DNA of 64,000 nt from Haloterrigena sp. KLK7 (GTDB lineage: Archaea; Halobacteriota; Halobacteria; Halobacteriales; Natrialbaceae). This document shows positions 36,042-58,221 of the stretch, piece after piece. The DNA is taken from contig NZ_CP149787.1 of NCBI RefSeq assembly GCF_037914945.1, positions 3,596,001 to 3,660,000 of the forward strand. Reading direction: 5' to 3'. Position numbers and translations under genes: made by a program. Below the pieces are notes generated by a model. It did not search any database, had not been told where the DNA came from, and saw nothing but the letters and a program-made list of their open reading frames with translations. The stretch's first letter is position 1. Every line of letters begins with the position of its first letter.

Positions 36042-37712
36042 TTAGAAATCGCTCAGTCCGGTTTGCTCGCCGTCGCTGCTATCGCTGCCGGCGCTCGCGT
36101 CGCGTTGCGTCGCCGTTCTGTCCGTCGTCTCAGTTCCAGACGTTTCGGTCTCGGTTCCAGACGCCTCGGAGTCCGATGCGCTCGCGCTCGCGGGTGAAGA
36201 CGCCGCGGCCGATCCGCTCGAGTCGGTCCGACTCGAGGCCGACGCCGTCGGCGTCTCCCGCAGGCGCTCGTAGACGTGCCAGAGCGCTCGGCAGTCGTCC
36301 TCGCAGTAGGCCTCGTGGCGGTCCCACTCGAGCGGCTCGCCCGTGCGCATGAACCGCTGGTAGGCCGCCGCGGTCTGGGCCCCGTCGAGGCCCGTCCGCG
36401 CGCCGTCGTAACCGAGCGCGTCGGCGACGGCCTCGAGCTTGTTCGTCCGCCCCGGCAGCAGGGCGTGCTCGTTTCGCACGGCCCAGAGGTAGAGGTCGAA
36501 CTTGGGGATCGACTCCCACTCGTCGACGTAGTAGGGGACGTGCTTCGCGACGAATGCGCCCAGATGCCGGTAGTCGAATCCCCAGCCGTTCCACGTGAGC
36601 AGGGCGCGGTTCGGGTGCATCCCCAGCAGCCAGTCACAGAAGGCCTCGAGCACCGACGCCGGATCGCTCGGATCCTCCGTCTCGACGAACGCCCGGTAGG
36701 TGTCCGCGACGGGATCGTAGACGCCGATCTGCCAGATGATCGTCGGCGAGAGGCCGTCGGTCTCGATGTCGACGCACAGCGGCGGCGTCGACCAGTCGAC
36801 GCCCGGCAGCGACTCGTCGGTGAGCCGACGGGGCTCGCCGGTCTCGAGCACCGTCGCGTGCTCGTGCATCGTCCGAGCGCCGTCGCGACCGACGCCCGGC
36901 AGCCCCGCGAGCGTCTCGACGGGCGTCTCGAGCAGCTCTTCGCGCGTCGTCACGCCGCGCTCTGCGAGTCGCTCCGCGGTCTTCGGTCCGATTCCGGTGA
37001 CCGCCTCGAGGCCGAAGTCGGTCACGTCGTGCGTCTCGACGCGCTCGACGCCGTCGGCGGTGAGCGTGAGCACGGCGATCGATCGGGAGCGGCCGTACCC
37101 CTCGACGGGACCGGCGCCCCGGACGCGGACGGAGACGCAGTCCTCGTCGAGCGGTCCGACCTCGGCGCGTAGTTCGTGGTCGACGCCGCGGACCGCGCCG
37201 GTATCGGGCTCGAGGTGCCACAGTTCGTCGTATTCGGCGGGTTCGGCGCCCGTCAGGACGGTCGTCGCGCAGTCGGTCGGGAGCACGGCCGCGAGCGTTT
37301 CTGCGCCCTCGAGGCGCGTCTCGAGGGCCGTCGGCCGCACGGTCGTCGTCACGTCGTCGCAGACGAGCGCGGTGACGTCGCCGTCCCGAAGCGCGCTCGA
37401 GGCAGCCTCGGGCGACGCTCGAAGCGCACGGAGGCTCTGGGCGACGGCGATCTCGAGTTCGATCCCGTCGTCCGCACCGATCACACGTCGATGGATCGGC
37501 TCGTTCTCGCCGGTCTCGAGCGGCGGATGGAACGCCGGCGCGTCGAACGCCCCACGCGCTCGGGCGAACGACTGCGGCTCGCGGGCCGGGCCGAGCACCC
37601 AGACGGCGTCGGGCTCGAGGGTTCGATCGATGTCCTCGAGGGTCGCGACGGGGCGGTCGGCCAGCGCCGAGGGCGGGAGGGCGAGGAGGCGGACGCCCGC
37701 TCGAGCGGTCAT
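36042..37712 (-). CDS. HhH-DEDD exonuclease, MrfB/YprB-like
   Basis: A 556-residue protein. Residues 1-235 are unrecognised. A helix-hairpin-helix DNA-binding pair lies at about 237-285 (VTGIGPKTAERLAERGVTTR ... LAGLPGVGRDGARTM). A DnaQ/RNase H-like exonuclease domain follows: CVDIETDGLS (Asp315, Glu317), LTWNGWGFDYRHLGAFV (Asp380), and RHEAYCEDDCRALWHVY (Asp472/473). These give the DEDD metal-binding set. The tail after about 490 is Ser/Thr/Ala-rich and disordered. The gene lies three bases upstream of the DUF1998 helicase, in the reverse gene order to B. subtilis yprA-yprB. The start at 37712 (MTARAGVRLLALPPSALADR) gives the sensible N-terminus; in-frame upstream residues to 38141 belong to another frame's shadow. 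Confidence 0.88.
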   Translation of the reverse strand: MTARAGVRLLALPPSALADRPVATLEDIDRTLEPDAVWVLGPAREPQSFARARGAFDAPAFHPPLETGENEPIHRRVIGADDGIELEIAVAQSLRALRASPEAASSALRDGDVTALVCDDVTTTVRPTALETRLEGAETLAAVLPTDCATTVLTGAEPAEYDELWHLEPDTGAVRGVDHELRAEVGPLDEDCVSVRVRGAGPVEGYGRSRSIAVLTLTADGVERVETHDVTDFGLEAVTGIGPKTAERLAERGVTTREELLETPVETLAGLPGVGRDGARTMHEHATVLETGEPRRLTDESLPGVDWSTPPLCVDIETDGLSPTIIWQIGVYDPVADTYRAFVETEDPSDPASVLEAFCDWLLGMHPNRALLTWNGWGFDYRHLGAFVAKHVPYYVDEWESIPKFDLYLWAVRNEHALLPGRTNKLEAVADALGYDGARTGLDGAQTAAAYQRFMRTGEPLEWDRHEAYCEDDCRALWHVYERLRETPTASASSRTDSSGSAAASSPASASASDSEASGTETETSGTETTDRTATQRDASAGSDSSDGEQTGLSDF

Positions 37713-53644: not shown

Positions 53645-54880
53645 TCAACTGACCGATTCGCCGACCGACGGACTCACGCGACCGGTGTGGACGTAGATGC
53701 CGGCGATCAGGACGACCCCCGCGAGCATCGGGACGACCGCGCTGGCGGCGTAGATGAATTCGAAGCCGAGGCGGTCGACCAGCGGCAGCGAGACGAGCGG
53801 CCCGAGCGCGCCGCCGACGTCCCCGAAGACGTTGTTCGTTCCCATGGCGCGACCGACCCGCTCCTCGGGCGTGAGGTCCGCCAGCAGCGCCGTCAGCGGA
53901 CCGCCGACGCCGCCCTGTCCGGCGCCGATCAGGAGACAGGAGAGCACCAGCACCTCGAACCGGGAGCCGAACGCGAGGACGCCGAAGCCGACACAAGAGG
54001 TGACGAGGAAGCCGAGCATGACGGGAACGCGAGCCCCGACCGAGTCGGAGAGCGCGCCGCCGCCGAGCGTGAACACCGATCCCGACAGCACCGTGACGGC
54101 CATCAGCAGCCCCGAGGACCCCTGCGCGTCGAATCCGAGGATGGAGATCGCGCGGGCGTCGAGCAGGAGGACCAGCGTCGAGAAGAGGACGCCGATGTAC
54201 GCGAAGTAGAGCCCGAAGTTGACGAGGCCGATCGTCAGCGCCGGGAGGCTCCGTTCGATGTCCCACGGCTTGACCGACTCCTGTTCCCCTTCGACGTGCG
54301 TCTCGGGAACGATGAAGTAGGCGATGACGCTCGCGAGGCCGGCGAACGACGCCGCGAGGACGAACGCCTCGACGTTCCCCCAGAGGTCGCTGACGACGCC
54401 GCCCATCACCAGCCCCGCGGGGAAGCCGAAGGTGATGCCCGCGCGGACGATTCCCATGCTGGTCCCCCTCGAGTCGGCCTCGCTGACGTCTGCCGTGATC
54501 GTGTAGGCGGTTGCGAAGACGAGGGCACTGCCGATCCCCCAGCAGACGCGGGCAAGCATGAACCAGGCCTCCGGGAACGACGAGACGATGGCGACGACGT
54601 AGCCGAACGTCGCCAGCCCCTCGATCGCCAGCCCCGCGACGAACGGCGTCCGGGTGCCGATGCGGTCGATGAGGACGCCCGCCGGCGCGTTGGCCACGAG
54701 CCGCGTGATCCGGTTGGCGCTCAGGATCAGGCCGACCATGAACGCCGAGATCCCCAGCACTTCGCCGAGGTTCGGCAGGATCGGAAAGACCACGCCGCCG
54801 CCGAAGCCGACGAAGAAGGTACTGGCGACGACGGCGAGGACGACGCGGTTCGAACCGGACGATGGCGGTGACACTGGCAC
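53645..54880 (-). CDS. MFS transporter
   Basis: A 411-residue major-facilitator protein with 12 hydrophobic segments. The motif-A-like loop after helix 2 reads NAPAGVLIDRIGTRTPFVAG (consensus GxxxDRxGRR). The motif repeats after helix 8 as GGGALSDSVGARVPVMLGFL. GQGGVGGPLTALLADLTPEE and RAMGTNNVFGDVGGALGPLV are also typical. Sequence type suggests drug or sugar efflux, but the substrate cannot be named. The start is a GTG at 54880; a second GTG two codons later is equally possible. There is no operon partner. Confidence 0.88.
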   Translation of the reverse strand: MPVSPPSSGSNRVVLAVVASTFFVGFGGGVVFPILPNLGEVLGISAFMVGLILSANRITRLVANAPAGVLIDRIGTRTPFVAGLAIEGLATFGYVVAIVSSFPEAWFMLARVCWGIGSALVFATAYTITADVSEADSRGTSMGIVRAGITFGFPAGLVMGGVVSDLWGNVEAFVLAASFAGLASVIAYFIVPETHVEGEQESVKPWDIERSLPALTIGLVNFGLYFAYIGVLFSTLVLLLDARAISILGFDAQGSSGLLMAVTVLSGSVFTLGGGALSDSVGARVPVMLGFLVTSCVGFGVLAFGSRFEVLVLSCLLIGAGQGGVGGPLTALLADLTPEERVGRAMGTNNVFGDVGGALGPLVSLPLVDRLGFEFIYAASAVVPMLAGVVLIAGIYVHTGRVSPSVGESVS

Positions 54881-55094
54881 TCGAGCTCCGTTTTCGACAC
54901 GCGTACGCAGACTACGGCACGGTTTGGATGTTGCGATGAACTCCGATGGTGCCGGTTTCGACAGTCGTCACGCTGCGTCGGCTGGTACCGTTTTCATCGC
55001 TGGACGAATCGGAAGACGATCATCGGACCCATTAATACCATTAATTTCATGTATTTCACAAAATATTAATGGTTCATCTGTTTTCTATCAGATA

Positions 55095-57001
55095 ATGACA
55101 TCCTCCCTCGGCCGTCGGCGCTTTCTCGCGGGCACCGCCACCGCAGGCGCCACCCTGAGTGCCGGCAGCCTGCCCGCTCGAGCACAGTCGGGAGAGAGAG
55201 AGACCCCGATCCGGCCGATCGCGAGGCCCTCGAGGCGTTCGTAGACGACGCGATCGAGTCGGAACTCGCGGACACCGACGCATCGGGTGCGGTCGTGTCG
55301 GTCGTCCACGACGGCACGGTCGCGCTCTCGAAGGGGTACGGCGAGACGTCGTTCGACGGCGCGGCGGTGACCGCGACGGAGACGCCGGTCCAGACAGGGT
55401 CTGTCTCGAAACTTATCACCTTCACCGCGGCGATGGGACTCGTCGACCGGGACGAGATCGATCCCGACGTCGACGTGACCGAGTATCTCGAGTCGGTATC
55501 GATTCCGGACGCGTACGACGAGCCGATCACGCTCGCTCACCTGGCGACGCACACGCCCGGGTTCGAAATCCGCGCGCGAAACGATACGGTCAGCGACCGC
55601 AACCACCGCCAGCCTCTCGAGGAGGCGGTCGGTTCCTATCAGCCGGCGCGGATTCACCCGCCCGGCGAGCTCAAGGGGTACACGAACTACGCGGCCGCGC
55701 TGACCGGACAGCTCGTCGCCGACGTCTCCGGATCCTCGTTCGAAGCGTACGCCCGCCGAGAGATCTTCGACCCGCTCGGAATGGATCGGAGCACGTTCGC
55801 ACCGACGCCCGACCACCTCGACCCGGACACGCGCGACGCACTCGCGACCGAGCTCCCGTGGCACTCCAACGTCCCGCCGGCGTCGGGATTCTGGTCGACG
55901 GGTGCGGACATGGCCCGGTTCATGCTGGCACATCTCGAGGGCGGCCGGACCGATTCGGGACGAATGCTCTCCGAAGCGGCCACCGAGGAGATGCACCGCC
56001 AGTGGTTTACCCCACACGAGAAACTGGGCGGGATGGCGTTCGGATTCTTCGAGCGGACCAGAGACGACGTTCGGCTCCTCACCCACAGCGGTGAAGGGCC
56101 CGCATACGGGAGCCAACTCGTTCTCGTTCCGGAGCTCGACCTCGGCCTGTTCGTCTCGTTTCAGGGGCGACAGACCGGGAACGCGGTCGGATCGTTCCGG
56201 GACGCGTTCCTCGAGCGCTACGTGCCGACCGGCGACGAAGCGTTGACGCCGGACGGCCGTCCGGAGCGGGCCGACGAGCTCGAGGGGACGTACCGAGCGC
56301 TCCAGATCTACGAGAGCACGACGTACGAGAAGCTCTTGCTCTCGACGTACAGTTCCGACAGGGAGGTATGGATCGAAGACGACGGAACGCTGGTCATGGA
56401 TACCGGCAGTGTCAGCCGCTGGGTCGAGATCGAGCCGCTGGTCTTTCGCCGGGTCGACGGCCAGCGGACGCTCGTCTTTCACGAGGAGGGCGGCGAAATC
56501 ACGGCGCTCTCGATCGGCGGAGCGGGGTCGGCGTACGTTCCGATCTCGCGGCTCGACGACGTGACCGTCCAGGCCCGGCTCGCGATCGGAGCGTCGATCG
56601 TCGCACTCTCGGGGGTCCTGGGATGGCCTCTCGCCGCGGCCGTTCGTCGGTACCGCGGTGTGGCACGGTCCTCGGCCGGGCCGGCGCGACGGGCGCGGTT
56701 GGCCGCCGGCGCCGCCGGCGGACTCCTGTTCGGGTTCGTCGCCGCGTTCGTCGTCGCCGCCCTGTTCACGTCGATTCTCGACGGGCCGTCACTGATCGAC
56801 CGTCCGCCTCGCGGATTTGGGTTGGTGTTCGGACTGTCGATCGCCGGCACCGTCGCGACGCTCGCGGCCGCCGGTTACGCGGTCCTGGCGTGGCGCGAAA
56901 AATTCTGGACCCTCGCCGCCCGCCTCCACTACACCGCCGTCGTCGGTTCGCTCGCGGTGTTGGTGTGGGTGTTCCGGTACTGGAACTTGCTCTGGCCGTA
57001 A
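55095..57001 (+). CDS. Tat-exported membrane serine hydrolase, frameshifted at a (GA)6 repeat
   Basis: The N-terminus starts at 55095 with a Tat signal (MTSSLGRRRFLAGTATAGAT LSAGSLPARAQSGERE) in one frame and terminates at 55242-55244. The remainder, DPDPADREALEAFVDDAIES ELADTDASGAVVSVVHDGTV and onward to 57001, is in a different frame. Removing one GA from the (GA)6 run at 55192-55203 joins the two into one 634-residue protein. The hydrolase core has the class C beta-lactamase motifs GSVSKLITFTAAMGL (SxxK) and YTNYAAALTGQLV (YxN), and four C-terminal membrane helices (LAIGASIVALSGVLGWPLAA ... GSLAVLVWVFRYW). As read, the export signal and enzyme are disconnected. A GTG at 55295 could start a cytoplasmic form without the signal. 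Pseudogene, sequencing error and switchable frame are all open. Confidence 0.8.
55192..55203 (+). repeat. (GA)6 microsatellite at the signal-peptide/enzyme junction
   Basis: Six GA units, preceded by TCGG and followed by CCCC. One fewer unit restores the reading frame of the exported hydrolase. Dinucleotide runs of this length inside haloarchaeal genes are rare and prone to slippage. Confidence 0.85.
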
Positions 57002-57015
57002 CGCGACGCGAGCGG

Positions 57016-58221
57016 TCAGAACGTCGAGAGCTCGCCGTCGATCACGCGGCGGGTGACGTCCGTGACGTCGGCGAGTTCCTCGTCGACGATGGCCTCGACC
57101 TCGTCCTCGACGTCGCCGACGGCGACGCCCTCCTCGGTGACCAGTTCGACGTCGGCGACGTGGGGCCGGTCGATCGGGCGGCCGATCTGGGAGAGCAGGC
57201 GCACGCGCAGATCGCGGATCTCGTCGACGTCGTCGACGACCGACTCGGCGATCTCCGTCGAGAGCAGGTTGTAGATCTTTCCGATGTGGTTGACCGGGTT
57301 CTTGCCGCTGGTGGCCTCCATCGACATCGAGCGGTTGGGCGTGATGAGCCCGTTGGCGCGATTGCCCCGGCCGACGGAGCCGTCGTCGCCCTGCTCGGCG
57401 GAGGTGCCCGTCACGGTGAGGTAGATCGACCCCTCGTCGTAGTCGTCGGCGTTGTTGACGTGGACGGCGACCTCGCGGTCGGTGTACTCGCCGGCGATCT
57501 CCGCGACGTAGGCCTGGACCTCGTCGACGGCGTCGCTGTACGCGTCCATGTCCGCGACGTACTCGTCGACCATCGCCGCCGCGACGGTGACGTCGATCCG
57601 GTCGCCCTCGCGTTTGCCCATGATCTTCACGTCGGGGCCCAGGTACGGGTTCTCGTCCGCGAATTCGCCGTTGAGCCGTCGCTCGGTCTCGAGGACGATC
57701 CGCTCGGTTTCGGTCAGCGGCGCGTGACCGACGCCGTAGCTCGTGTCGTTGGCCATCGGGACGGACACCTCGTCTTCACCGAAGACCTCCTGTAAGTCGC
57801 CGCTGCCCTCGCCGAGCTTGACGTCGACGACGATGTCCTCGCCGAGCTCGAGTTGCGGGATCGTCTCCGAGAGATAGTCGCGGGCGGCCCGCAGCGCGAT
57901 GGTCTCGGCGGGGATGGTCTGGCCCTCGTAGCTCTTGGTCGCGCGGCCGACGATCAGGAGATAGATCGGATCGACGACTTCGCCGCCGCCGAAGGCGGGC
58001 GCGGCCCGGCCGGCGACGAGTTGCGTCTCGTCGGTGTTGAAGTGCAGCACTTCGCCCACGCGGTCGATGTACTCGCGGGCCAAGGCGCCGGCGACGGCCT
58101 CGGCGACCCCGTCACAGATCGAGTCGGGATGGCCGATCCCCTTTCGCTCGACGACTTCGACTTCCTGGTCTTCCACTGCCTGACGGTCGATCGACTCGAC
58201 CCGAATGTTCCGCTCGCTCAT
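57016..58221 (-). CDS. Archaeal S-adenosylmethionine synthetase
   Basis: A 401-residue archaeal-type methionine adenosyltransferase (MAT), making AdoMet from methionine and ATP; it supplies the methyltransferases in this window. Sequence blocks include [40 protein letters not shown] and [20 protein letters not shown], which match the archaeal MAT family rather than bacterial Met[21 protein letters not shown] and [20 protein letters not shown] also match, with [19 protein letters not shown] further on. A GTTATAGA element on the reverse strand (58246-58253) lies 25-32 bases before the ATG at 58221. Confidence 0.96.

Follow-up and report, generated by a model that had tools for sequence, protein, structure and literature searches.

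The gene between an MFS transporter gene and metK in Haloterrigena sp. KLK7 raises the question of whether an exported serine hydrolase is being switched on and off, has recently been lost, or is intact and misread. In the 64,000-nt stretch analyzed here (the window), the original prediction, made from the sequence alone, held that a GA repeat separates a Tat signal from its enzyme and that the gene may be phase variable or else has just decayed. We consider that this dispensable accessory gene probably acquired a frameshift by slippage, recently and in this genome alone, and is a nascent pseudogene. The Tat-signal frame runs into a stop after 49 codons (Table 1), and the rest of the PF00144 serine hydrolase is encoded in the -1/+2 frame relative to it. 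The open stretch of the hydrolase frame extends from 55070 to 57001, and the GTG at 55295 is the sole ATG, GTG, or TTG start upstream of the catalytic motifs. When every 2-nt deletion was scored against the two nearest orthologs, the frame change was placed at 55188-55203, which comprises the (GA)6 run and a few bases before it, so that a frame-shifting repeat lies inside the reading frame at the junction. Removal of one GA in silico fused the two frames into a 634-residue protein of normal coding bias, and no stop or indel beyond the GA change was found in its 634 codons. Together with the ortholog alignment and predicted structure described below, this bears out the original prediction in its description of the sequence: the signal frame is broken by a stop with the enzyme in another frame, the repeat lies at the junction, and loss of one GA gives a 634-residue protein with signal, SxxK and YxN motifs, and four membrane helices, with no other defect.

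Table 1. Features of the hydrolase locus and its neighbors (window positions)
Feature	Position	Strand	Evidence
MFS transporter, conserved left neighbor	53645..54880	-	
AT-rich TATA-like element AAATATTAA, ~26-34 nt before ATG 55095	55061..55069	+	Sequence read
Tat-signal frame, MTSSLGRRRFLAGTATAGATLSAGSLPARAQ..., from ATG 55095 to TAG 55242-55244, 49-residue product	55095..55244	+	Sequence read; signal aligns with intact orthologs
(GA)6 repeat	55192..55203	+	Sequence read; frame change localized to 55188-55203
Mature serine hydrolase (PF00144, penicillin-binding-protein/class C beta-lactamase fold), C-terminal beta domain, and four membrane helices, shifted frame	55202..57001	+	Pfam 2e-46; AlphaFold2 model; Foldseek top 2qmi
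Longest canonical-start ORF of the hydrolase frame, GTG 55295, 568 aa	55295..57001	+	Sequence read; AlphaFold2 model
Archaeal S-adenosylmethionine synthetase (metK), conserved right neighbor	57016..58221	-	

The fused product is a member of PF00144 by the profile match of its mature part (2e-46), by its SVSK (S102), YTN (195), and HSG (330) motifs, corresponding to SxxK, Y-x-N, and H/K-x-G, and by its fold. The AlphaFold2 model (mean pLDDT 76) depicts a hydrolase of penicillin-binding-protein-like fold, then a beta domain, and lastly four long C-terminal helices. The nearest solved structure, by both sequence (3.6e-21) and fold (Foldseek), is Pab87 of Pyrococcus abyssi (2qmi), an archaeal penicillin-binding-protein homologue, although the Tat signal and the four C-terminal membrane helices of the haloarchaeal gene fall outside the match. 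Haloarchaeal serine hydrolase domain-containing proteins (such as those encoded on NC_013744.1 and NZ_CP045491.1) share the PF00144 domain but are distant homologs (~41-43% identity), and the compared copies each occupy a single frame. The signal (GRRRFLAG...LPARAQ) contains the Tat motif RRRFL and the cleavage site ARA-Q, and it is out of frame with the enzyme in the window sequence and in frame in the nearest orthologs. The TATA-like element upstream of the signal would suit a leaderless haloarchaeal transcript and may act as its promoter. No Rfam RNA element was matched in 54400-57400, and a defense gene reading was rejected, with no PADLOC match.

Orthologs with 61 to 76% identity are present in five others of the 125 family genomes, and all five encode signal and enzyme in a single frame; a frame that is disrupted here and intact in orthologs elsewhere is the pattern of a pseudogene. 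Aligned with the two nearest orthologs, G069 (634 aa) and G068 (633 aa), the fused product is 75% identical with no gap at the junction, where the linker is Gly-Glu-Arg-Asp in the fused frame vs Thr-Asp-Ser-Asp in the orthologs. At the repeat site the DNA of the nearest orthologs reads GTC--GACGGATAGCGA, not a GA repeat. No GA run was found near the N-terminus of any of 29 family homologs, a check in which the script's orientation was wrong for a few loci and the closest loci were read correctly; the only dinucleotide runs of at least four units near homolog N-termini were CGCGCGCG, in two of the 29. The absence of a GA repeat in homologs suggests that point changes in a linker under little constraint created the repeat in this genome alone. 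The comparison of repeat length in close relatives that had been proposed as a check therefore finds neither GA5 nor GA6 there; with GACGGATAGCGA and intact frames in the nearest orthologs, it favors a private frameshift and lends no support to switching.

The repeat is rare in its own genome. In the 4.64-Mb genome, pattern searches located two sites with GA runs of at least six units, of which only 55192-55203 is on the 3.84-Mb main contig, and five sites with runs of at least five units; in a 504-kb sample, the (GA)6 run was the sole dinucleotide run of at least six units. It is also the only (GA)6 or longer run within a gene in the genus and family sample inspected. According to the codon-bias model, the other inspected runs of this length are intergenic (the genus loci, 18 further family loci, and 30 loci of genus g10), and one inspected GA/TC run, before msrA, sits upstream of the likely start. 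Since a rare repeat coincides with the frame break, slippage is the likely cause, whether biological or technical, and the frame change mapping onto the repeat strengthens the earlier proposal that slippage of one GA unit gave rise to the frameshift.

Other repeats and flags were encountered in these genomes. The msrA-associated run, (TC)9 at positions 90715-90732 of contig C4 (L137:1501-1518), is the longest GA/TC run of the genome and lies 48 nt before the msrA start; plasmid copies in H. turkmenica and H. salifodinae lack both (TC)9 and the sequence preceding it. Genus g10 of the same family (G028-G032; loci L248-L250 and L259-L288) has many long (GA)n tracts, ~9-20 per genome and 8-26 units long in the three genomes searched in detail, with 39-287 overlapping (GA)6 matches per genome vs 0-24 in other family genomes. 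All 30 inspected g10 tracts are intergenic, often with ATC just before them. Their strand tracks chromosome position, with plus-strand tracts at 0.27-1.0 Mb and 3.44-3.66 Mb and exclusively minus-strand tracts at 1.08-2.78 Mb in G029:C1, and minus-strand tracts at 0.45-1.33 Mb and plus-strand tracts at 2.42-2.96 Mb in G032:C1, so that they appear to be replichore-oriented. On the main contig of KLK7 (C1), a cluster of HMM frameshift flags at ~1269414-1287115 could reflect decay or a mobile region there.

The coding sequence bears few marks of age. Compared with the nearest ortholog, G069, dN/dS is 0.159/0.463 (0.34); identity to the outgroup L025 is 0.646 for the window gene vs 0.654 and 0.633 for intact orthologs; and neither GC3 nor codon bias is unusual. 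The terminal branch was estimated at ~0.08-0.12 substitutions per site from half of the dS to the sisters, and over its whole length a neutral gene would be expected to accumulate ~4 stops and 18-27 indels, the latter figure using the ratio of indels to substitutions in Halobacterium salinarum (PMC9997560). The lesion would span roughly less than 10-14% of this branch. The lack of added stops or indels, and of rate acceleration, means that any inactivation would be very recent, or polymorphic, or not real; such signs would be expected only in older pseudogenes. As judged from its substitutions, the gene appears to have been under purifying selection until very recently. A lesion this recent is indistinguishable from a polymorphism or a consensus error.

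In KLK7 and in the G068 and G069 genomes, the gene is flanked by the MFS gene and metK in a neighborhood that also includes thiI, CYTH, and FKBP-type genes; in G095 and G096 it adjoins metK with thiI nearby, and in G065 it is at a different location. The gene is absent from the MFS-metK locus in all five sister Haloterrigena species, where the matching flanks are separated by ~146-188 bp, and only one of the five (G005) has a homolog, of 41% identity and on another replicon. Its absence at the locus in every sister argues that the gene is accessory and dispensable. Its dS to G069 (0.46) is similar to that of the neighboring thiI, MFS, and metK genes (0.45-0.50), which fits vertical descent with losses, and recent gene transfer as the source of the patchy distribution was rejected on the same ground, with the proviso of an equally distant donor. 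In the tree, KLK7 branches between G001 and the remaining sisters, so vertical descent would require two losses; alternatively, the gene may have been gained once, in the KLK7 lineage, from such a donor.

In the explanation that we favor, a (GA)5 run in the linker that immediately follows the signal-peptide cleavage site would have gained one unit by slippage. The signal now meets a stop, with 49 codons in total, and the enzyme would not be produced in exported form. The event would be private to this genome, recent, and in a gene that the genus can dispense with; we infer loss of function and fixation of the allele in the strain. The (GA)6 run could lose one unit again, and inactivation may therefore be reversible at a low rate. 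The young private lesion, the intact orthologs, and the absence of the gene from the locus in sisters all favor the second alternative of the original prediction, that the gene has just decayed.

The main rival, which we regard as unlikely, is that the true sequence is (GA)5, the gene is intact, and the sixth unit is an assembly or consensus error. The gene is otherwise well conserved, and its sole lesion is the change of one unit in a repeat that is the longest dinucleotide run of the sample, the very place at which a sequencer or polymerase would be expected to slip. Against this, screening with a codon-bias HMM over 464 kb and nucleotide alignment (blastn) to sister species found the remainder of the window free of clean private frameshifts, across ~43-47 kb of aligned coding sequence per sister for four sisters. 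Small indels in the sister alignments were paired or fell within poorly aligned stretches, an HMM flag at 36253 was a false alarm in an intact gene with a low-complexity tail, and widespread assembly indels were rejected as an explanation because neither method revealed a general frameshift problem. A run of six units is short to have caused a consensus error in short-read data. The clean remainder of the window lowers the chance of a local consensus error but does not remove it.

Phase variation, in which slippage converts GA5 (ON) and GA6 (OFF) alleles into each other as a selected switch, is improbable, and it is highly doubtful that this locus is a repeat-based contingency locus in an archaeon that toggles an exported serine hydrolase. 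The likeness to the simple sequence repeat contingency loci of Campylobacter, Neisseria, and Haemophilus lies in a frame-shifting repeat near the 5' end of an otherwise intact gene with an exported surface product, toggled by one unit, and among the runs inspected this is the sole (GA)6 or longer run within a gene. However, in contrast to those loci, the repeat is unconserved and short, a single allele is known (one assembly per species), the gene is missing at the sisters' locus, and those haloarchaea examined to date have proved polyploid. The titles and excerpts of the literature searched contained no account of repeat-based phase variation in haloarchaea, and the phase variation of the virus phiCh1 reportedly acts by recombination. 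That haloarchaeal system is cited in PMC8371274. The cut-off for phase-variable dinucleotide tracts is at least six units in Campylobacter (PMC6321876) and at least eight in Neisseria, where no change in repeat number was seen in dinucleotide tracts (PMC5953494); the six units of the OFF allele equal the former and fall short of the latter, and the ON allele, with just five units, would lie below both, outside the hypermutable range. Nor was the repeat retained with varying unit number in the orthologs or the 29 homologs. The low indel rate of haloarchaea (4.75e-11 per site per generation in Halobacterium; PMC9997560) and gene conversion, which equalizes the many genome copies in Haloferax (PMC4056108), should damp switching. 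The original proposal of a switch is thus unsupported: homologs lack the repeat, sisters lack the gene at the locus, and the ON length is below the cut-offs.

It is hardly credible that ribosomal or transcriptional slippage at the repeat yields full-length protein from the GA6 gene, as the selected appearance of the gene and the C_CCG context after the repeat might suggest, since the orthologs are simply in frame, there is no canonical slippery heptamer, and the RNA downstream folds no better than shuffles (z ~ -0.2), nor do the stretches 55095-55204, 55206-55300, and 55180-55290. Use of the shifted frame alone, from GTG 55295, to make a 568-aa non-exported enzyme is just as implausible: the ORF can be annotated, but in the predicted structure its start falls inside the first strand of the fold, leaving the product without signal, first helix, and about half of that strand, and in every one of the nearest orthologs the enzyme frame includes the upstream Tat start.

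A true switch here would join the very few repeat-based contingency loci of archaea, and one would have to ask how switching by slippage can operate when the cell is polyploid and undergoes gene conversion. Read as a private frameshift, the locus would be a clean case of slippage that struck a dispensable surface gene very recently, and it would illustrate that a single unit of a rare repeat may hide an intact gene from annotation.
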